A DNA stretch of 43,861 bases, taken from assembly GCA_001898035.1 (NCBI GenBank), contig MKRX01000005.1, positions 40,962 to 84,822 on the forward strand, read 5' to 3'. The notes beneath the pieces were generated by a model. The model was not told the DNA's origin. It did no database searches and saw only the letters and a list, made by a program, of their open reading frames with translations. The DNA is from Armatimonadetes bacterium 55-13 (GTDB taxonomy: Bacteria > Armatimonadota > Fimbriimonadia > Fimbriimonadales > Fimbriimonadaceae). Positions 9,501 to 35,984 of this stretch are shown one piece after another (the first letter of the stretch is position 1; each line of letters begins with the position of its first letter). The position numbers and the translations under genes are program-made.

Positions 9501-12500
9501 ATGCGTCTTAAGCGCGTCAAGATTTTTGGGTTCAAGACATTCGCGGACCGGACAGAGTTCAACGTCGATGGCGGCTTGATTGCGGTCGTCGGGGCGAACG
9601 GTTGCGGCAAGTCGAACCTGGTCGACGCGATATTGTGGGGACTGGGAGAAGGGAACGCGCGGCAACTTCGCGCCGCCAGCAGCCAAGACGTGATCTTCAG
9701 CGGCAGCGCGCGGAGAAAGGCGGTTGGGTTTGCCGAAGTGAGTCTTCTGTTCGACAACGAAGACGGCGCTCTGCCCATCGATACTCCCGAAGTCTCCATC
9801 ACCCGCCGGTTGACCCGATCTGGCGATAGCGAGTACTCGATCAACAAGCAGACCTGCCGCCAACGAGACATCTTCGAGCTTTTGGCAGACTCCGGATTGG
9901 GGCGAGCCGGTTATTCCATCGTTGGCCAAAAGGACATCGACAACGCCTTGGCGGCTTCCCCCGAAGAGCGCCGCGCTTGGGTGGATGAGGCAGCGGGTGT
10001 TCAACGGTATCGAGCCCGTAAGATCGAGAGTCTTCGGCGTCTAAGCTCCGCCAATCAGCATCTCTCCCGAGTCAACGACATCATCCAGGAGTTGGAGAGT
10101 CAACGGGAGCCGCTGCGGGAAGAGGCGGAAGTCGCCCGCAAGTACAAAACCACGCTGACTAGCCTCCGCGAGATCGAGTCTGGCTTGTTGATTAACGAAG
10201 TGGCGAAGGCGGTTCGCGAGGTCGAGGAACTCGAGAAGAAGATCGAAGAGTCCTCCAAGCTCGCCCGCGAAGAACTGATTCGGGCGGACCATATCGATAC
10301 CCAGATCCGAAGGATCGGTGAAGAAGTCTCGGCGCTGGAGAGCGAGATGGACTCCATCCGAGGTTTGCAGCAGGGCAGCTTGACGGCGATGGAGCGTGCC
10401 AACGCAGACCTTCGGTTAGCGGAGCAGCGCCTTCAAAGCCTGGACGATCTTGAGAAGAACCTGGGCGAGGAAGCGGGCAAGGGGCAAGAGCGGGTTAAGG
10501 AACTCGAACTTGAAATCGAATCGCTGATCGAGGAAGAGAAGCTCGAAATCGAGGGCTTGGACAAACTCCGAGTCGAGTTCGCCGGGGCCGGGGAAGAAGC
10601 GAAAGCGCTTCAAGACAAGCTGCGCTCCTTGGAAAAATCACTTCTCGATGCCCGAGAGCGACACAATTTGCGACTCCGTCAGGAGGCCCAGGCCGAACAG
10701 CAAAAGGAACGGGCCGGACTGGCGCGCCGCGAGTTGAAGGGGATCGAGGAATCTCTTCCGGACCTTGACGAAGCCGTCGCCGAGGCGAAGAAGGCGTTTG
10801 ACGAGCTATTCGGGGCGATCAAGGAACAGCAGGATAAGGTCAAGGCGATTGAGCAGCGACTGGCTCAGGACCGGCAGCAGGACGAGCAAGACGCCCAAGC
10901 ATCCCGCCGACTATTGGCGGAGAAAGCCTCGTTGGAAGGACGCCGTCGCGGTATTGAGGCGACCATTGAAACCCACGAGGGATTGAACCAGGGTGCGCGC
11001 GCGGTCTTGGAAGCCGCCGAACGAGGCGTTCTGAGCGCCACCTATACGCCGGTTGGCGAAGCGGTGAAGGTCGATAAGGACTTGGCGTTGGCGATCGAAA
11101 CGGCCCTGGGTGGTTCGGCGAATGATCTCATCGTCGATCAAGACTCGGATGCGAAAGCGGCCATCTCCTTCTTGAAGCAGCACCGCCTCGGTCGCGCCAC
11201 CTTCCAACCGATCCCTCTCATGCGGCCGTTTGAGCCCTCCTTTGAACTGCGGAAGGTCTTGGGGGAGCGCGGCGTTGTGGGGCGGGCGAGTGAACTCGTT
11301 GCCTGTGAGTACCGAGTCAAGCCGGTTATCGATAGCCTCCTCGGCCGAGTTCTGATCGTTGAGGACCTGGACACCTCGCTTCGACTCGCGAAGACCTCCG
11401 GCTGGAGCCGAATGGTGACCCTGGACGGGGAAGTCGTGCACAGTTCCGGCGCGGTTACGGGGGGACACGCGGCGAAGCAGGGCTACGGTTTGGTGCAGCG
11501 AAAGGCGGACCTTGCCGAACTTGAGAAAGAGATCGAGAAGATCGAACGGTTGGTTTCTGATGCGGAATCTCGGGCGAGAAAGCGTGGTTCCGAACGACAG
11601 AAACTGATCGATGAAGCCGCCTCGCTCAACGCTCAGGTCGGTGAGCATCAGGAAGAGGTCGATGAGGCAAGATCTTACTGGCAGACGCTGAACGAAGAGC
11701 TTCAGGCGGCGTTGAAAGCGAAACAGCGCCTGGAGCACGAGCTTGAGCAGCTTAAAGCGGCAGGGAGTGACCAGATTGAAGAAGTCGACGTTGCCGCCAT
11801 CGAGACCGAGCGAGACGAACTGATCCGTCAACTGGCCTCTCGGTCGGCGGACGCGGAGAGTGCGGAGACCCGCCTTCGGGAGAATGAGCAGCGTCTGGCG
11901 CAAGCTCAGATGCGCCTTTACACCGCGCGCAAGCGGTTAGAAGTCACTCAGGAGGCAGAAGAGGGCCGAGAGAAGCGACTTTCTCACCTGGAGCCGGATC
12001 GGGAAAAGGCTCGCCTTGAAATCAAGCGATCAACCGAGCTGGGCGATAAAGCGAGGCAGGACAAAGCGGAAGCGGACCAGCGACTGGAGAAGGCTCAGGA
12101 AGCCAAGCGAGGATTGCTGGAGCAGAACCTTCAACTCGTCGAAGAAGCGAAAGCCGCTCGCGCCAATGCGGGCAGCGTGGGCGATGGGGTTCACCAAGCC
12201 GAACTCAACCGCGCCCGAGCCGAATCTCGCCGCGCCTCGTCGCTGCAACGGCTCTTTGAAGAGTACGGATTAGGGGAAGAGGAGGCATTGGAACAGGAAG
12301 GGATGCACGAGGTCCCGCCCGATGCTTCCGCCATCGTTTCTCGGCTACGCAGAGACCTTAAGGCGATGGGCGACGTGAACGTTGGGGCTATCGAGGCGTT
12401 TGAGCGATTGACCGTTCGCTTTGATGAGTTAAGTGGCCAACAAAAGGACATTCTTGACGGGATCGAGCAAGTTGAGGCATCCATCAAAGAACTGGACAAG

Positions 12501-17720: not shown

Positions 17721-17996
17721 ATGGCAAACAAGAGATCTAGTAAGAAGGACCTGCGACGAATCGCCAAGCGAACCGTGCGCAACAAGGGCACCAAGACGGC
17801 CCTCAAGACCTACGTAAAGAAGGTTAAGGCCACGGCTGCTACGGGCGAGACGGCTGCTGTTCAGGCTGCTTTGACGACGGCAGTTAAGGCCCTCGACAAG
17901 GCTGCACAGCGCGGGATCATTCACAAGAACCAGGCTGCTCGCCGAAAGAGCCGAGCTGCGAAGGCCGCCAACAAGGCCCTTCAAGCCGAGAAGTAA
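17721..17996 (+). CDS. rpsT: 30S ribosomal protein S20
   Basis: A 91-residue, very basic, alanine- and lysine-rich protein of usual S20 length. It begins MANKRSSKKDLRR and has the expected motifs RTVRNKGTKTALKTYVKK and the C-terminal GIIHKNQAARRKSRAAKAANKAL. S20 binds 16S rRNA early in 30S assembly. The gene is single, with its own upstream gap and a strong terminator 12 bp after the stop. Codon use is visibly biased to a small set (AAG, GCT, GCC), as expected for a highly expressed gene. The ATG has no canonical Shine-Dalgarno, only AAAGAA. Confidence 0.97.
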   Translation: MANKRSSKKDLRRIAKRTVRNKGTKTALKTYVKKVKATAATGETAAVQAALTTAVKALDKAAQRGIIHKNQAARRKSRAAKAANKALQAEK

Positions 17997-18007
17997 GTTT
18001 TAAAGAA

Positions 18008-18042
18008 ATAGCCCCGAGCGAAATTTCGCTCGGGGCTATTTT
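18008..18042 (+). terminator. Strong intrinsic terminator after rpsT, likely bidirectional
   Basis: Bases 18008-18039 form a perfect 32-nt palindrome (arms centred on AATT between 18022 and 18025, GC-rich in the outer half), followed by TTTT (18039-18042). On the other strand the stem is preceded by AAAA and followed by ATTTCTTTA-type sequence, so it can also end the minus-strand FKBP transcript that stops at 18056. Confidence 0.93.
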
Positions 18043-18055
18043 GCGTTGTCTTTTC

Positions 18056-18373
18056 CTATTTGATCGAAACGAGTTCGACTTCGAAGACCAACGTTGCGTT
18101 CGGTGGGATGGCGCTTCCCGCTCCTCTTGCGCCATAGCCAAACTCGGGTGGGATGGTGGCTTTGCGCTTTCCGCCGGGACTCATCCCGAGAACCATCAGG
18201 TCAAATCCTGGGATTACCTGACCGGCGCCGACCTGAAACGAAAAGGTGCTGCGCCCGTGGCTGCTGTCAAATTCTTTCCCATCGGGAAATGTGCCCCGAT
18301 AGTGGAGTTCAACCGTATCGCCGTCTTTGACCTGGGGGCCTTCGCCCGTTTGAATTTCTTCGATTCCAATCAT
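18056..18373 (-). CDS. FKBP-type peptidyl-prolyl cis-trans isomerase, single domain
   Basis: A 105-residue single FKBP domain, the same size as minimal FKBPs. Family motifs are VKDGDTVELHYRGTFPDGKEFDSS near residues 14-38, FQVGAGQVIPGFDLMVLGM near 46-64, RKATIPPEFGYG near 70-81 and the C-terminal IPPNATLVFEVELVSI. Active-site aromatic and Asp positions (Y25, F35, D36, V55, I56, W-position replaced by F58, Y80) appear largely kept; the usual Trp of the pocket floor is Phe. No signal peptide, so cytoplasmic. Its ATG overlaps the stop of the preceding two-domain FKBP gene by 4 bp, so the two are coupled. It assists proline-limited protein folding. Confidence 0.93.
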   Translation of the reverse strand: MIGIEEIQTGEGPQVKDGDTVELHYRGTFPDGKEFDSSHGRSTFSFQVGAGQVIPGFDLMVLGMSPGGKRKATIPPEFGYGARGAGSAIPPNATLVFEVELVSIK

Positions 18374-19077
18374 TTCGTTTCTCCGCGCGCCAACTTGACC
18401 ATCTCAATGGTGAAGAAGAGGGTTTGTCCGGGCTTGATCAAGCCCTCGCCAACTCCCTTGTCTCCGTAACCGAACTCCGCGAGAATGGTTAACTCGCGCT
18501 TTTCGCCTTGTTTCATACCGATGACGCCAGCGGTGAAGCCCTTAATCAAGGCGGTGCGGCCGAGGATGATCTGGAAGGTTTGCTTGCGCTCGTAGCTGCT
18601 GTCTAGAACCTTACCCGTGTCATCCTTCAGTTCGTAGTGAAGCTCGCAGACATCGCCGCCAAGGGCCGTCAGTTCACCCTTGCCTTCGGTTAAGATCTTC
18701 GTCTTGATTCGGTCGATCTTGACCATGGTGATGTCGAACTTGAGGTCCGAATTGGGAGGAATCTCGCCTGCGCTTTGAGCGCCGTAGGCGAGGTCGCTCG
18801 GGATCGTAAGTGATCGAATACCATGGACCTTCATTCCGACTAGGCCCTGATCCCAACCTTTGATGACTTGACCCGCGCCGAGGGTGAATTGAAATGGCGC
18901 TCGATCGACTGAGGAGTCGAATTGCTTACCGCTGGCGAGTTTTCCGGTGTAGTTAACGGTGATGATATCGCCAGGTTGGGCGGCAATGCCGATGCCGGTC
19001 AAGGTGTCCTTGATCTCAACCTTTCCGGGTCCCTGGATGAATAGCGCGGCAAGGAGCGCTATGGCACATGTGCTCAT
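18370..19077 (-). CDS. Exported protein with two tandem FKBP-type PPIase domains
   Basis: I place the start at ATG 19077 (MSTCAIALLAALFIQGPGKVEI), which gives a short signal peptide; an upstream GTG at 19113 is in frame but adds a charged, non-signal extension. Two FKBP domains follow. Domain 1 has ITVNYTGKLASGKQFDSS, FTLGAGQVIKGWDQGLVGM and RSLTIPSDLAYGAQSAG, with the pocket Trp present. Domain 2 is more diverged, with CELHYELKDDTGKVLDSS, FQIILGRTALIKGFTAGVIGM and RELTILAEFGYGDKGVG. The C-terminal ends FFTIEMVKL. The likely site is the periplasm or envelope, where it would aid folding of secreted proteins. It overlaps the cytoplasmic FKBP gene by 4 bp and lies 45 bp after the TTHB210-like gene, so all three are probably one operon. 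Confidence 0.9.
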   Translation of the reverse strand: MSTCAIALLAALFIQGPGKVEIKDTLTGIGIAAQPGDIITVNYTGKLASGKQFDSSVDRAPFQFTLGAGQVIKGWDQGLVGMKVHGIRSLTIPSDLAYGAQSAGEIPPNSDLKFDITMVKIDRIKTKILTEGKGELTALGGDVCELHYELKDDTGKVLDSSYERKQTFQIILGRTALIKGFTAGVIGMKQGEKRELTILAEFGYGDKGVGEGLIKPGQTLFFTIEMVKLARGETK

Positions 19078-19122
19078 GCAGGAATCGTACCCCTCGTTTC
19101 TCACAAGGGGCACGAAATTGGG

Positions 19123-19959
19123 TTAGGCCTTTTTCTTAGGCTTTGCCGGCATGGTCTTCGCGGGAGACTTCGCTTTGGCAAAGATCAGATTGTCTAGGGA
19201 GATGGTGATCTCCTTGCGGGCTTCGTTGTATTTCACGCCGTATTCGCAGGGATAGAATCCCGTCTTATCAAACGCCTTGGGCATTGGAATTGGCTGGTGA
19301 AAGTCAGGCTTGCTCGCTAGGAACTCGTGAGTGATCATCGGTTCGAAGAAGGCCGTCTTCCCGTTGTAGCTTCCGTAAAGGAAGGTGGAGGAGAAGGGCT
19401 GGCCATTCAATTCCGGGGTCTTGGGATCAATCCAGTGGGCGCCCATGCGGGGAACCACGGTGCCTGGAGGCAGGATGTATCCCGAGGGAATGAATTCTGG
19501 CGAGGGTTTGAGATTGCACTTCTTCAAGTCGCCGCCGCGAGCAAGGATTTTCTCCTTGGCCGCTTCGTCGATGGTGTAGAAGTGAATGTCAAAGTGAGGT
19601 CGGCCGTAGATTTGCTCCGGCTCGTGTCCCACCGGGTTCCAATCCAGTTCGACATGGTCGAAGGGTTGGCCCTGGATCTGCGGAGGAAGCTCCAAGATGT
19701 ACATTTTCATGGGCATCTTGGGGTCGAGGTCCTTAGGAAGGCCCTCGAGGGCTGATTCGGTGAGGGTTACCCCCATGGATTCGATCTTGAACTTGGGACC
19801 GGGAGCGATTTTCGCCCACGTGAATGCCATCCCATTTCCCACGGCAACGCCGGGACCGAAGATATATCCTTTCTTGCAGTTCGGACAAGCGTACGCTGCG
19901 CTTGCGACGGCTGCATAAACAACAGAAATTGAAAGCAATGCAAATGCTCGCGTCTTCAT
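19123..19959 (-). CDS. Secreted TTHB210/DUF5602-like protein with HxDxHFY motif
   Basis: A 278-residue protein with signal peptide MKTRAFALLSISVVYAAVASA, followed by YACPNCKKGY, a CxxC pair close to the mature N-terminus. The central HFDIHFYTI and PRMGAHWID, with FEPMITHEFL, are the conserved histidine-containing pieces I associate with the TTHB210-like / DUF5602 family of periplasmic proteins, in which the histidines could bind a metal. The assignment is from memory of the motif style, not from a search. The C-terminal tail is lysine rich (AKSPAKTMPAKPKKKA). It leads the FKBP genes in the same direction, 45 bp before the two-domain FKBP start used here, so an envelope-folding context is possible but unproven. 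Confidence 0.75.
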   Translation of the reverse strand: MKTRAFALLSISVVYAAVASAAYACPNCKKGYIFGPGVAVGNGMAFTWAKIAPGPKFKIESMGVTLTESALEGLPKDLDPKMPMKMYILELPPQIQGQPFDHVELDWNPVGHEPEQIYGRPHFDIHFYTIDEAAKEKILARGGDLKKCNLKPSPEFIPSGYILPPGTVVPRMGAHWIDPKTPELNGQPFSSTFLYGSYNGKTAFFEPMITHEFLASKPDFHQPIPMPKAFDKTGFYPCEYGVKYNEARKEITISLDNLIFAKAKSPAKTMPAKPKKKA

Positions 19960-19997
19960 AGCGAGACCGTTTTGCCACGTAATTTCGCTTAATCCTA

Positions 19998-20090
19998 GGG
20001 GCCCGGTATTCTTTTGGGGACTACAGCCCGCCCGATTTGGAACAATTGGGTCCTCAAAAGGCCATAGGGCTTAGATGAATACTGGGCCCC
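19998..20090 (+). ncRNA. Nested-hairpin structured element between two minus-strand genes
   Basis: Three nested helices can form. The outer one pairs 19998-20011 with 20077-20090 (14 bp). The inner one pairs 20011-20021 with 20050-20060 (11 bp). The apical hairpin pairs 20031-20037 with 20044-20050 (7 bp, loop of 6). Each helix has one G·U that pairs only in the plus-strand RNA; on the minus strand these become C·A mismatches. A possible 5-bp pseudoknot joins AGCCC (20025-20029) to GGGCT (20067-20071). The outer stem is followed by ATTTCCTTTT (20091-20100), like a terminator tail. It lies antisense to the gap between the methionine synthase gene and the TTHB210-like gene. I do not recognise a known RNA family. 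Confidence 0.5.
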
Positions 20091-20107
20091 ATTTCCTTTT
20101 GCCGCAA

Positions 20108-22051
20108 TTATGCGGTAGCGAACTCTCGCTTATCGAAAACGAGGTCGCTCGCGATCTTCCAAACCTCAGCGTCGATCCGATTTTCCGGGAGAATCTTGCT
20201 GAAGTGGACAATGGCGCTGGTGAGTCCCGCCTCCCGTGCGTAGTGCAGGAACGCCGAGTTCAGGATCTGTCTCGCGGCAGGTTTCAGACCAAAGCTCACG
20301 TTGGAAACGCCGAGGATTGAGTTCACGTGCGGATGTCTCCTTCTGACTTCCTTGATCGCCTCAATCGTCTCGATGGCCGATTGTCGGAACTCTTCATCTC
20401 CCGAGCCCAGGGTGAAGGTAAGGCAGTCGAGGAATACGTCGTGGTCTGGCAGGCCTTTGGCGCGGGTGCGCTCCAAGATTCGCTCGGCGATCGCCACTTT
20501 CTTCTCCGCAGACTTGGCCATGCCGTCTTCGTCAATGGTCAAGGCAACTACGGCGGCGCCGTACTTCTGACAAAGGTTCAGCACCTTCTCGGTGCGCGCC
20601 TCGCCATCTTCGAAGTTGATCGAGTTGATGATGGGCTTGCCAGCCAGGCATTTCAGAGCGTCCTCTACCACGTTGACTTCGGTCGAGTCGATCATGATTG
20701 GCACCGTGATGTGCTGGTTGTAGTAACTCAGCAGGGTCCGCATGTCCCTGGATTCATCCCGGCCGACATAGGCGGTGCAGACGTCTAGCACGTGCGAACC
20801 CTCGCCCTCCAACTCTCGGGCAAGTTCGGTCAGGCCCTCCCAGTTTTCGGCGGCGAGCATTTCTCGGAATGCCTTGGAGCCGTTAGCATTGGTCTTCTCG
20901 CCAACAATGAGATAGGAACTGTCTTGCTCGTAAGGTTGGAACTGATAGAGCGAGCTGCATCCCACCAGACTCAGGCCCTCAGCTTGGGCATCCGTTCTCA
21001 AGGTGAAATCGAACCCAGGGAAGAGGTGGCGGACCTTTCGCCAGTGGGCGTTATCCGTGTGCAGACGCCCTCCTACGGCTTCCGCGACCGCCTTGATGTG
21101 AGCCGGGGTGGTTCCGCAGCAGCCACCGGCAATGGCGACGCCATGGTCTCGCACAAACCGTTCGTGGTGATGCCCAAGTTCTTCTGGGGTGAGTTTGTAA
21201 ACGGCCTGTCCGCCTTCCATCACTGGCAAGCCTGCATTGGGCTGGACGCTCAGGGGGCGGGTGGAGTTGTCGCCTAAGAATCGGATATGAGGCGCCATTT
21301 CCACCGGGCCGGTGGCGCAGTTGATCCCGATGGCCTTGACGGCGGGGAAGCTCTCCAGCATGTTGAGGGCCGCCCCTAGCTCAGAGCCCAGGAGCATCGT
21401 CCCGGTTTGCTCCATCGTGACCTGCACGAAGAGGGGAACTTCCCGCTGAGTTTCCGCCATTGCCCTCTGGGCGGCGATGACGGTAGCTTTGACCATCAAC
21501 AGGTCTTGGAGCGTTTCTAGCAAGAGAGCGTCCGCTCCGCCTTCTAGCGAGCCTTTGAACGAGTTGAAGTAGGTTTGTTCTAGCTCATCGAAAGTGGTTT
21601 GCCGGAGGGTGACCAGTTTGGTGCCAGGGCCGATGGCGCCGACGACGAAGCGTGGTTTGGCGGTTGTCGAGACTTTGTCAGCAGCTCGCCGGGCGATCTT
21701 GGTGGCCTGAAGGGCGATCTCGTAGTCCAGGTCTTGAATATCGTATTCGCCCAGGACGATGGAGGTGCAGCCGAACATATTGGTCTCCACCAAGTCCGAG
21801 CCTGCTTCGTAATAACGGGTGTGGATCGCCTCGATGGCATCGGGGCGGGTGAAGACAAGCAGTTCGTTGCAGCCGTCTAAGAAGCGGTTTTCCAAACGGT
21901 TTCCGGCTTCGCGAACCTTGGCAGGAAAGGCAGGATCGTCTCTGAGGGTGAAATCTGCCTCCGTGAAGTTTGCCGCCTGAATTTGGGTGCCCATGGCGCC
22001 ATCCCAGATGAGGACGCGGTCATTGAGAGCTTCAAGTAATTTGGATTCCAC
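20108..22051 (-). CDS. metH: Methionine synthase, homocysteine and folate modules only
   Basis: A 647-residue protein that corresponds to the first two modules of cobalamin-dependent methionine synthase. The homocysteine-binding barrel (residues ~1-330) begins ALNDRVLIWDGAMGTQIQ and has the zinc-ligand segments GINCATGP (~242) and GGCCGT (~312). The pterin/methyltetrahydrofolate barrel (~360-645) has GEKTNANGSKAFREM, EGSHVLDVCTAYVGRDE, IMIDSTEVNVVEDALK and ILGVSNVSFGLKPAARQ. It stops at the normal end of the folate barrel, so the cobalamin-binding and AdoMet reactivation modules (another ~580 residues in full MetH) are absent and there is no trace of them downstream. The start is GTG at 22051 with a poor Shine-Dalgarno. 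It would transfer methyl from methyl-folate to homocysteine with a separate corrinoid protein. See findings. Confidence 0.92.
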   Translation of the reverse strand: MESKLLEALNDRVLIWDGAMGTQIQAANFTEADFTLRDDPAFPAKVREAGNRLENRFLDGCNELLVFTRPDAIEAIHTRYYEAGSDLVETNMFGCTSIVLGEYDIQDLDYEIALQATKIARRAADKVSTTAKPRFVVGAIGPGTKLVTLRQTTFDELEQTYFNSFKGSLEGGADALLLETLQDLLMVKATVIAAQRAMAETQREVPLFVQVTMEQTGTMLLGSELGAALNMLESFPAVKAIGINCATGPVEMAPHIRFLGDNSTRPLSVQPNAGLPVMEGGQAVYKLTPEELGHHHERFVRDHGVAIAGGCCGTTPAHIKAVAEAVGGRLHTDNAHWRKVRHLFPGFDFTLRTDAQAEGLSLVGCSSLYQFQPYEQDSSYLIVGEKTNANGSKAFREMLAAENWEGLTELARELEGEGSHVLDVCTAYVGRDESRDMRTLLSYYNQHITVPIMIDSTEVNVVEDALKCLAGKPIINSINFEDGEARTEKVLNLCQKYGAAVVALTIDEDGMAKSAEKKVAIAERILERTRAKGLPDHDVFLDCLTFTLGSGDEEFRQSAIETIEAIKEVRRRHPHVNSILGVSNVSFGLKPAARQILNSAFLHYAREAGLTSAIVHFSKILPENRIDAEVWKIASDLVFDKREFATA

Positions 22052-33746: not shown

Positions 33747-34966
33747 ACAATTCACGGAGGATCTACGACCCTATCCTGTTTGGCCTCGCGCTCTTGCTGA
33801 CGGCTGTTGGGATGCTCTTCATTTTCGATGCGGGTTATGCTCGCGCCCTGCGCGATGGCAAGGGAATGATCCCTCGCGAATTCCTGATGCAGATCCCCTT
33901 CTTGATCGTGGGACTGATCGGCGCATGGGTCATTTCCGGGTTTAACCAAGTCAAGTGGAAGCGATGGTCGAAAGCCTTCTTCTTCTTGGGCATGCTTAGC
34001 TTGATCGCGGTCGAGGTTCCGGGACTCGGAGTCGAGATGAGCGGTGCGCACCGTTGGATCGGTCGAGGCGCATTCTTGGTACAGCCGGCTGAGTTCTTCA
34101 AACTGGCAGGAATCCTCTATCTGGCGGGCGTCTTTGCCGAGCGAAAGGCTTGGCCCTCCAAACTCCCTAAGTACAAAGACTGGGGCGCGAAGATGGATGC
34201 GCTAGCCATCCCCAAACTCATGCGCTACCTGCCGGCTCTTTGGATGCTGGTCGGAATCGTTTTGATTGAGAAAGAGCCGGACATGGGCACGGCGGCGGTG
34301 GTCGCGGTGACCACGTTCGTGATGTTTGTGATCGGTGGCGTTTCCCGCGCCTCGCTCGCGCTGGCCATCGGGCTCTCGGTTTTGGGATGCTGGTTCATGG
34401 TGAAGGCTCAGCCGTACCGTATGGATCGAATCCTCAATCACGCTCAGCGGTGGAATCCGGAGAATGTGGACGATGTGGGATACCAAACCGTCCAATCCGA
34501 ATTGGCGATGGCGAGTGGCGGCGTGGCGGGGGTCGGCATTGGCGCTGGACGAGCGAAGCACGTCATTCCGGCGACCACGACCGACTTCATCATGGCAACG
34601 ATCGGTGAAGAGTTTGGGTTAGTCGGCTCCATCGCAGTCATCGGCTTGCTGGCGGCTCTTGTGTGGCGACTCTTCTGGCTTGCTTCGCGAGCCCACACGA
34701 AGTTCTCGATGCTGGTGCTGGCCGGAGTCGGCTCATGGATCGGGGTTCAGGCTTGCACGAACGTAATGATGGCAAACGGCTTCTTGCCTGCCATCGGCAT
34801 TCCGCTTCCGTTCATCAGTTCGGGCGGATCGTCACTGATTGCTCTGTGGTTTGCGATGGGATTGTGCCAAGCGGTCCTTTCGCCGGTTCCGGTAAAGAAG
34901 GAGGCAGATGTTGCGACTGGTCGTGACCGGTGGGGGCACGGGCGGGCACGTCTATCCCGCGCTTGA
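33743..34966 (+). CDS. ftsW: Septal peptidoglycan glycosyltransferase FtsW (SEDS family)
   Basis: A 407-residue polytopic SEDS protein that polymerises lipid II at the septum with FtsI. About ten membrane helices are predictable (DPILFGLALLLTAVGMLFIF first). SEDS motifs include GAHRWIGRGAFLVQPAEFFKLA near 100-120, KEPDMGTAAVV near 175, the substrate loop GYQTVQSELAMASGGVAGVGIG (key part QSELAMASGG), DFIMATIGEEFGLVGS near 275 and the C-terminal GIPLPFISSGGSSL near 355. The start ATG overlaps murD by 4 bp. The C-terminal 59 bp overlap murG, which has its own AGGAGG inside ftsW. The polar C-terminal tail (GRDRWGHGRARLSRA) comes from the overlap region and is therefore constrained by both frames. 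Confidence 0.95.
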   Translation: MNNSRRIYDPILFGLALLLTAVGMLFIFDAGYARALRDGKGMIPREFLMQIPFLIVGLIGAWVISGFNQVKWKRWSKAFFFLGMLSLIAVEVPGLGVEMSGAHRWIGRGAFLVQPAEFFKLAGILYLAGVFAERKAWPSKLPKYKDWGAKMDALAIPKLMRYLPALWMLVGIVLIEKEPDMGTAAVVAVTTFVMFVIGGVSRASLALAIGLSVLGCWFMVKAQPYRMDRILNHAQRWNPENVDDVGYQTVQSELAMASGGVAGVGIGAGRAKHVIPATTTDFIMATIGEEFGLVGSIAVIGLLAALVWRLFWLASRAHTKFSMLVLAGVGSWIGVQACTNVMMANGFLPAIGIPLPFISSGGSSLIALWFAMGLCQAVLSPVPVKKEADVATGRDRWGHGRARLSRA

Positions 34967-35984
34967 AGTAGCTCGCTATGCGAGCGAGCAGGGAGCCGAG
35001 ATTTTGTATCTCGGCTCCCTGCGTGGTCAAGAAGGGAAGGCATGTGCTGACCGAGGAATCCTCTTCCAAGGGTTCCCGTCTGAGCCCTTGTATTCGCTGA
35101 AGACCCCTCGTGGATGGAGGGCGGCTGCCCAATTGCTGCGGGCCAAAAGCATGGCTAAACGTGCTCTGAAGGCTGCCGACCCCGACGTCGTGTTTTCTAC
35201 CGGCGGCTATTCGGCGGGGCCAGTGGTGGCGGCGGCGAGATCGTTGGGCATTCCGTACTGCATCCACGAAGCGAACTCGGTTCCTGGGCGTTCCAATCTC
35301 ATGTTTGCTCATGAGGCGGATGCGTTCACGTGCCTCTTCAAGTCCACCCCCAAGTTTGCTCCGAACGTTTCTTGCGTAAGGGTGGGCCAACCGCTTCGCC
35401 ACGAACTCCGGGAAGCGGTCAAAGACCGTAAGCCGGTGGAAGACTTGGTTCTGATCGTAGGCGGTTCACAGGGGTCGGAGTACCTCAACATGAATATGCC
35501 GCGAGCGGCCACCAGCGACCAACTCCAATCGACGCGATTTCTCCACGCCAGCGGCCCGAAGAACTTCGAATCCACTTTCAAAGTGGTGCAATCGTTGGGG
35601 ATTGATGACCGCTATCGAGTCGTTCCGTACTTGGAGACCAACGACATGGTCGAGGCTTATCGGTCGGCGACGGTGGTGGTGGGTCGAAGTGGGAGCACGC
35701 TGGCGGAATTGGCAATGTTCGGAATTCCTTCAGTCCTTGTGCCCTTACCCTCAGCGGCGGGAAACCATCAGTTTCATAATGCAGAAGAGTTCGTCGAAAT
35801 CAATGCGGCGAAGTTGGTCCCCCAAGATCAAGCCACTCCGGCGGCCCTCGCGGAAGCCATCGAAGGATGGGTGGGCAATGCGGAGGCACGGCAAATTGCC
35901 GAACGCGAACTCAAGGCGTGGGATATTCCTGACGCCACGGAAAGGATTTACGAATTGATTCAGCAAGCCACGGTGCAGCATTGA
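34908..35984 (+). CDS. murG: UDP-GlcNAc:lipid I N-acetylglucosaminyltransferase MurG
   Basis: A 358-residue GT28 glycosyltransferase that turns lipid I into lipid II at the inner face of the membrane. The donor loop GGGTGGHVYPALE is at residues 8-20, FSTGGYSAGPVVAAARSLGIP near 88-108, HEANSVPGRSN near 110-120, a second glycine motif GGSQGSEYLNM near 185 and GRSGSTLAELAMFGIPSVLVP near 262-282. ATG 34908 is preceded by AGGAGG four to five bases upstream, inside ftsW; the two genes overlap by 59 bp, the largest overlap in the cluster. A 15-bp perfect inverted repeat lies in the coding region at 34988-35022. The stop overlaps murC by 4 bp (TTGA). Confidence 0.95.
   Translation: MLRLVVTGGGTGGHVYPALEVARYASEQGAEILYLGSLRGQEGKACADRGILFQGFPSEPLYSLKTPRGWRAAAQLLRAKSMAKRALKAADPDVVFSTGGYSAGPVVAAARSLGIPYCIHEANSVPGRSNLMFAHEADAFTCLFKSTPKFAPNVSCVRVGQPLRHELREAVKDRKPVEDLVLIVGGSQGSEYLNMNMPRAATSDQLQSTRFLHASGPKNFESTFKVVQSLGIDDRYRVVPYLETNDMVEAYRSATVVVGRSGSTLAELAMFGIPSVLVPLPSAAGNHQFHNAEEFVEINAAKLVPQDQATPAALAEAIEGWVGNAEARQIAERELKAWDIPDATERIYELIQQATVQH
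34988..35022 (+). repeat. 15-bp perfect inverted repeat inside murG
   Basis: Bases 34988-35002 are the exact reverse complement of 35008-35022, with a 5-base loop (tttgt, 35003-35007). The stem is 10 of 15 G/C. It lies about 80 bp into murG and encodes residues near SEQGAEILYLGSLRG, so the protein is not disrupted. No T-tract follows. Confidence 0.9.

Follow-up and report, generated by a model that had tools for sequence, protein, structure and literature searches.

In the preQ1-II RNAs and the HDV-like ribozymes a hairpin is inserted into an H-type pseudoknot, and the attC sites of integrons are marked by the core sites RYYYAAC and GTTRRRY. Together with intrinsic terminators, palindromic repeats of the MITE and REP kind and the Bradyrhizobiaceae small RNA BjrC68 (Rfam RF02353), these are the described systems with which a structured element of 93 bp from Armatimonadetes bacterium 55-13 can be compared. 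The element occupies positions 19998-20090 of the window (the whole stretch of 43,861 nucleotides that was analysed) and sits in a 148-bp intergenic region (19960-20107) between a gene of the TTHB210-like family (PF18197; 278 aa, 19123-19959, minus strand) and a gene encoding the homocysteine- and pterin-binding part of methionine synthase (metH; 647 aa, 20108-22051, minus strand). The most plausible reading is a local hairpin of ordinary kind at the end of a gene, and not a new RNA class.

On the plus strand the element comprises three helices. P1 (14 bp) joins GGGGCCCGGTATTC (19998-20011) to GAATACTGGGCCCC (20077-20090), P2 (11 bp) joins CTTTTGGGGAC (20011-20021) to GTCCTCAAAAG (20050-20060), and P3 is a 7-bp hairpin (20031-20050; arms 20031-20037 and 20044-20050) closed by the loop TGGAAC. 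Each helix holds a single G.U pair on this strand (20005-20083, 20017-20054 and 20034-20047, respectively). A possible pseudoknot of 5 bp can be drawn between AGCCC (20025-20029) and GGGCT (20067-20071), and, read from the sequence, the pairing extends to 8 bp with one bulged C (20021-20029 with 20067-20074). The element is followed by a U-rich tail, ATTTCCTTTT (20091-20100), in which seven of the ten positions are U and the run is interrupted by CC. The original prediction had described these three helices, their wobble pairs, the possible pseudoknot, the tail and the minus-strand orientation of both neighbouring genes, and every one of these features is present at the coordinates claimed, although the pseudoknot pairing has a frequency near chance. 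Because C20011 is common to P1 and P2, and G20050 to P2 and P3, the three helices cannot all form at full length at once.

The strand order of the preQ1-II and HDV-like pseudoknots (P2-5', PK-5', P3, P2-3', PK-3') can be drawn in the element. Unlike those RNAs, it matches no such family up to E 10, its pseudoknot is near the chance level and its P2 has 11 bp. The earlier statement that no known RNA family has this shape was borne out: Rfam gave no matches in the window, and a known family was rejected since no gathering score was reached. The best candidate, BjrC68, resembles the element through a weak match at 20002-20100 on the plus strand, with hairpins followed by a U-rich end, but it scores 17.9 bits where the gathering score is 39. 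An integron attC site was also discarded, as neither RYYYAAC nor GTTRRRY occurs in 19960-20107 on either strand.

When 19998-20090 is folded on the plus strand, the structure of minimum free energy (-47.7 kcal/mol) is a single long hairpin with interruptions, from which P2 is missing. The nested P1/P2/P3 arrangement had been proposed as the fold of this element, but it reaches -40.0 kcal/mol and is not the form of lowest energy; the best listed nested form with P2 reaches -46.2 kcal/mol. Mean pair probabilities on this strand are 0.996 for P1, 0.369 for P2 (10 of its pairs) and 0.692 for P3, while the pseudoknot pairing, treated as a nested helix by a folding program that does not model pseudoknots, has a probability of 0.002. 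In prefixes ending at 20072-20084 P2 folds and P3 is absent, and these prefix folds suggest that the P2 form could be reached during RNA synthesis.

A second hairpin competes with this structure. It spans 47 bases (20055-20101), starts on the minus strand 6 bases past the metH stop codon (20108-20110) and consumes the 3' arms of P1 and P2 as well as the U-rich tail. Its two sides, 20055-20070 and 20086-20101, are Watson-Crick complementary at 13 of 16 positions; on the minus strand they read CAAAAGG..AUGGGGC..AG against CU..GCCCUAU..CCUUUUG, with two 2x2 internal loops. Folded alone, the hairpin has an energy of -20.5 kcal/mol on the minus strand (0 of 200 shuffles as stable) and -19.0 kcal/mol on the plus strand (1 of 200). 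On both strands, the best fold of 20051-20160 contains it; on the minus strand this fold has a z score of -4.6 and no equally stable shuffle among 200. If the region is extended to 19998-20160, the P1 fold is preferred on both strands. An equilibrium switch between P1/P2 and the 20055-20101 hairpin in a full-length plus-strand RNA was judged unlikely given the mean P1 probability of 0.996.

This hairpin is like an intrinsic terminator in that it lies directly past the metH stop codon, with an A-rich foot on one side and a U-rich foot on the other. It differs from one in its two internal loops, in having four U in a row, in being missed by a simple terminator scan and in its overlap with the longer and more stable P1 hairpin. 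The foot on the minus strand is CCUUUUGAGG, where the run of only four U is paired with CAAAAGG, and from its letters it looks like that of a worn two-way terminator. No U-run follows P1 on the minus strand (TAGGATTAAG). On the plus strand the terminator scan returned an 8-pair hairpin at 20067-20089 with the U-rich tail of the element (1 found against 0.6 in shuffles). P1, taken as a plus-strand terminator, would have a loop of 65 nt and the interrupted tail of seven U in ten; the window has three other stems of at least 13 bp, with spans of 34-38. The metH 3' end (20102-20160) has a strong fold of its own on the minus strand (z -3.5, 1 of 200 shuffles), and a 5-bp hairpin within it, CCGCA/UGCGG, overlies the stop codon.

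The reading to which we give most weight, tentatively and with somewhat less than even confidence, is that the element is a lineage-specific metH gene end, made of a terminator-like hairpin and an additional complementary arm at 19998-20021. During metH transcription the 47-base hairpin would form first, and could act first, because synthesis of the minus-strand RNA produces it before the 19998-20021 arm. It might then reduce the transcription that runs on into the following gene, or shield the transcript at its 3' end. Upon read-through, or in a plus-strand RNA, the 19998-20021 arm would join and the longer P1/P2 hairpin would result. The position, 6 bases past the stop codon of metH and flanked by two genes that run the same way, argues for the gene-end reading, as does the 20055-20101 hairpin, which is beyond chance and belongs to the best fold of the metH 3' region whenever the 19998-20021 arm is missing. 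The two internal loops, the short UUUUG at the foot, the lack of a U-run after P1 on the minus strand and the preference for the P1 fold on both strands once the whole of 19998-20160 is present speak against it, as does the sequence of the element, which is not conserved in the genomes searched and so gives no sign of selection.

The gene order around the element is consistent with a lineage-specific gene end. Beyond the TTHB210-like gene, whose start codon lies 38 bp from the element, an FKBP gene follows on the same strand (18370-19113). In the sister MAG SJ693 (L074), metH is 82% identical and is followed after a spacer of about 50 bases by FKBP, with neither a TTHB210-like gene nor the element in between; similarity to the window stops at the metH stop codon. 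FKBP comes immediately after metH in L075 and L090 as well, and at about 90 bases with 33% identity in L011, and it is found farther from metH in L079 and L076. The element lies where the TTHB210-like gene separates metH from FKBP, two genes that adjoin each other in the sister and some other relatives. TTHB210-like genes were found in 18 of 101 genomes, this one included, and in neither of the two other genomes of the genus, which are 74% and 75% complete. We infer that the gene was gained here and not lost in the sister; an insertion of older date that the sister later lost is also possible, since genome G014 (L010/L080) keeps a 59-aa remnant of a TTHB210-like gene directly after metH. The ends of the segment of about 1 kb carry no direct repeat as an insertion signature, the sole listed direct repeat being inside the gene. 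As for metH, the domains above the cut-off in its 647-aa ORF are the homocysteine- and pterin-binding ones only, and in several relatives at the level of the order the match falls in an ORF of about 1150 aa.

In search of an equivalent structure beside metH, relatives were scanned on the sense strand at 28 metH loci and 13 loci of TTHB210-like genes besides those of the window, with the best three stems listed per locus. Stems of at least 10 bp with a span below 40, within about 55 bases of the metH stop codon, occur at 4 of the 28 other metH loci (L009, L021, L024 and L031), which speaks for the gene-end reading; the remaining 24 have no such short stem near the stop codon among the stems listed, which speaks against it.

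The degree to which the element exceeds chance depends on the scale considered. The 93-nt fold has a z score of -4.9 on the plus strand, with none of 1000 shuffles as stable, and of -3.3 on the minus strand (-40.1 kcal/mol), with 2 of 1000; with flanks, over 121 nt, the scores are -3.4 and -1.2, respectively. No shuffle in 1000 of the 148-bp intergenic region reaches a stem of 14 bp, and a P2 of 10 bp within the 65-nt loop of P1 was matched in 37 of 5000 shuffles. P3 (248 of 5000, about 5%) and the pseudoknot pairing (209 of 5000, about 4%) are near chance. When the window was scanned coarsely on both strands, as 1752 stretches of 110 nt, the stretches starting at 19951 and 20001 fall outside the 25 lowest z scores (-3.28 or lower) and gave -0.9 and -2.1 on the plus strand when refolded, a low rank due to the fact that both cut P1; 20051-20160 on the minus strand is among those 25, together with several other places.

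Stems like P1, defined by a length of at least 14 bp, no more than one G.U and a span of 60-130, were counted on two strands of a 444-kb genome sample (443,861 bases, that is, the window plus a 400-kb sample), in which a crude mask leaves 60,588 bases outside ORFs of at least 150 aa. Three matches at two places were found against 1.67 expected, two of the three being one palindrome in L169. The combination of P1 with a nested stem of at least 10 bp, intergenic position not being required, turned up 4 times when 151 Mb of shuffled sequence were searched, which corresponds to an expected 0.0012 occurrences in the window and 0.12 in the genome; a separate shuffled run of 26.6 Mb gave none. The element is therefore beyond chance for this window but not for a scan of many genomes, and it may serve as a calibration case, since such a striking nested fold, beyond chance in one window, is nevertheless expected about once per eight genomes of this size.

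These counts bear directly on the reading that ranks second, which we regard as a real possibility, though at clearly less than even confidence: a neutral palindrome devoid of function, produced by chance or mutation (template switching or local duplication), or a single decayed copy of a mobile palindrome. P1-like stems occur near the chance rate, a many-genome scan will meet some combinations of P1 with P2 at 0.12 per genome, and P3 and the pseudoknot add pairings near chance. The likeness of 78% between the arm 19999-20016 and the tail 20084-20101, as direct repeats, would fit a local duplication, and no relative was found in the searches. A neutral origin is harder to reconcile with an expectation of only 0.0012 per window and with the competing 20055-20101 hairpin past the metH stop codon, which is likewise beyond chance. 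It also sits poorly with the fact that the genome holds no other copy and that no target-site duplication was seen (flanks AATCCTA and ATTTCC, compared by eye).

It had been argued that the wobble pairs fix the strand of the element, but this does not hold. Read as a single palindrome with arms of 31 bp, the element has 22 Watson-Crick pairs and 9 irregular ones, and among the latter four are wobbles on the plus strand, two are wobbles on the minus strand and three are neither. The argument is largely circular because the helices had been extended with G.U allowed on the plus strand, so that an A.C would have ended a helix uncounted; wobble pairs within helices picked with wobbles permitted do not amount to a proof of strand. 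The folds themselves point both ways: the plus strand gives 19998-20090 its more stable fold, and the minus strand gives 20055-20101 and 20051-20160 their more significant ones.

The proposal of a separate plus-strand transcript convergent to metH found no support either, since a simple scan for sigma-70 sites gave none on the plus strand in 19800-20300. An autonomous small RNA of this strand would have a pseudoknotted core, in which P1 encloses P2, P3 and the 20025-20029/20067-20071 pairing, and would end at the U-rich tail; if transcribed, it would be a small RNA of interest for Fimbriimonadia. It is suggested by the energies of 19998-20090 (-47.7 kcal/mol on the plus and -40.1 kcal/mol on the minus strand), by the irregular pair of each originally drawn helix being a G.U on the plus strand, by the tail at 20091-20100 and by the orientation of both flanking genes, owing to which a plus-strand RNA would be its own transcript. 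Such an RNA needs a promoter, which the simple scan did not find, P2 has a mean probability of 0.37 and the pseudoknot one of 0.002 as a nested helix, the strand assignment is partly circular, and there are no homologs in the genomes searched; taken together, this makes it unlikely. The least probable of the readings, which we would grant very little, is an orphan plus-strand RNA of about 100 nt, so far of this genome only, in which the P1-closed pseudoknotted core is combined with a switchable 3' end, and which would control read-through or antisense transcription at metH; in the proposed switch 20055-20070 would pair with its upstream partner in P2 or, alternatively, with 20086-20101 downstream of it. 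A plus-strand riboswitch was excluded, as the next gene on this strand is metH in antisense and none lies downstream in the same transcript.

On the minus strand, a weak sigma70-like match (TCGATA-18-CATAAT, 9 of 12 positions; 1 found against 0.3 expected in shuffles) lies at 20136-20107, just upstream of the element. With only 38 bp from the element to the start codon, it raises the idea of a structured 5' leader of the TTHB210-like mRNA that starts at this site and carries a stabilising or regulatory hairpin. We consider this improbable, because the minus-strand fold of 19998-20090 is the weaker one and 12 other such leaders have no consistent structure. In 13 leaders, this one included, whose starts were guessed by script and lay 36-48 bases off the expected place in three cases, the sense-strand z score is -1.00 to 1.68 in 11 of the 12 others, -2.86 in L067 and -2.22 here. 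A conserved leader structure of TTHB210-like genes is therefore not supported, only the L067 leader and this one being below -2.

The element resembles MITE and REP sequences as a short, imperfect and intergenic palindrome; it differs from them in being present in one copy in this genome, in having no relatives found and in showing no target-site duplication. Within the genome the other four matches are only 14-21 nt long (E 0.48-5.8), and this single copy disposes of the dispersed mobile palindrome that had been considered at the outset. BLAST against 100 other genomes returned only matches of 15 to 37 nt (best E 0.032), and against 84 other genomes of the family, an overlapping set, three short matches (E 0.0097-0.044), all of which are at chance level given the number of genomes. 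Covariance searches used a model built from the element alone, of low sensitivity and with stricter filters beyond 40 genomes; they recovered only the element itself among 101 genomes at E 1, and no relative in the 290 others of 291 phylum genomes at E 0.5. The same model, run on both strands of 47 sequences (the window, 32 of 80 metH loci and 14 TTHB210-like loci), gave the element, the same element in reverse (23.8 bits) and a match in L088 (12.7 bits, E 2.8). There was no relative among phages and plasmids, and viral contigs gave no match to one degenerate 25-base pattern of the element. Among the titles listed in literature searches, none concerns this element or a small RNA of Fimbriimonadia. 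This absence of homologs is evidence neither against an RNA nor for one, and an RNA family is unsupported rather than refuted. The structure is present, in single copy and confined to this genome as far as searched, and a function would be putative at most. The original observation is thus partly confirmed and its interpretation partly supported.

Several other hairpins were met in the course of the analysis. In the window, a perfect hairpin of 15 bp at 34988-35022 (GCAGGGAGCCGAGAT / ATCTCGGCTCCCTGC) lies in the 5' part of the ORF 34908-35984, which we take from its N-terminus to be murG-like, and not at a gene end. A 17-bp hairpin at 18005-18042 lies between two convergent ORFs, 17721-17996 on the plus strand (presumably S20-like) and 18056-18373 on the minus strand (FKBP-like), and its U-rich stretches on both strands make it look like a two-way terminator. 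Upstream of the TTHB210-like gene of L067, a phylum-level relative, there is a stem of 22 bp at 1210-1269 (GCTGCAAAGCCCGTTCCGGGCT / AGCCCGGAATGGGCTTTGCGGC). In L169, an inverted repeat of 18 bp (12026-12093, span 68 bp, core TAGTTATTTTACAGGA) reaches the start codon of a 61-aa ORF; by eye the protein resembles a ribbon-helix-helix protein, and the repeat is a possible candidate operator.
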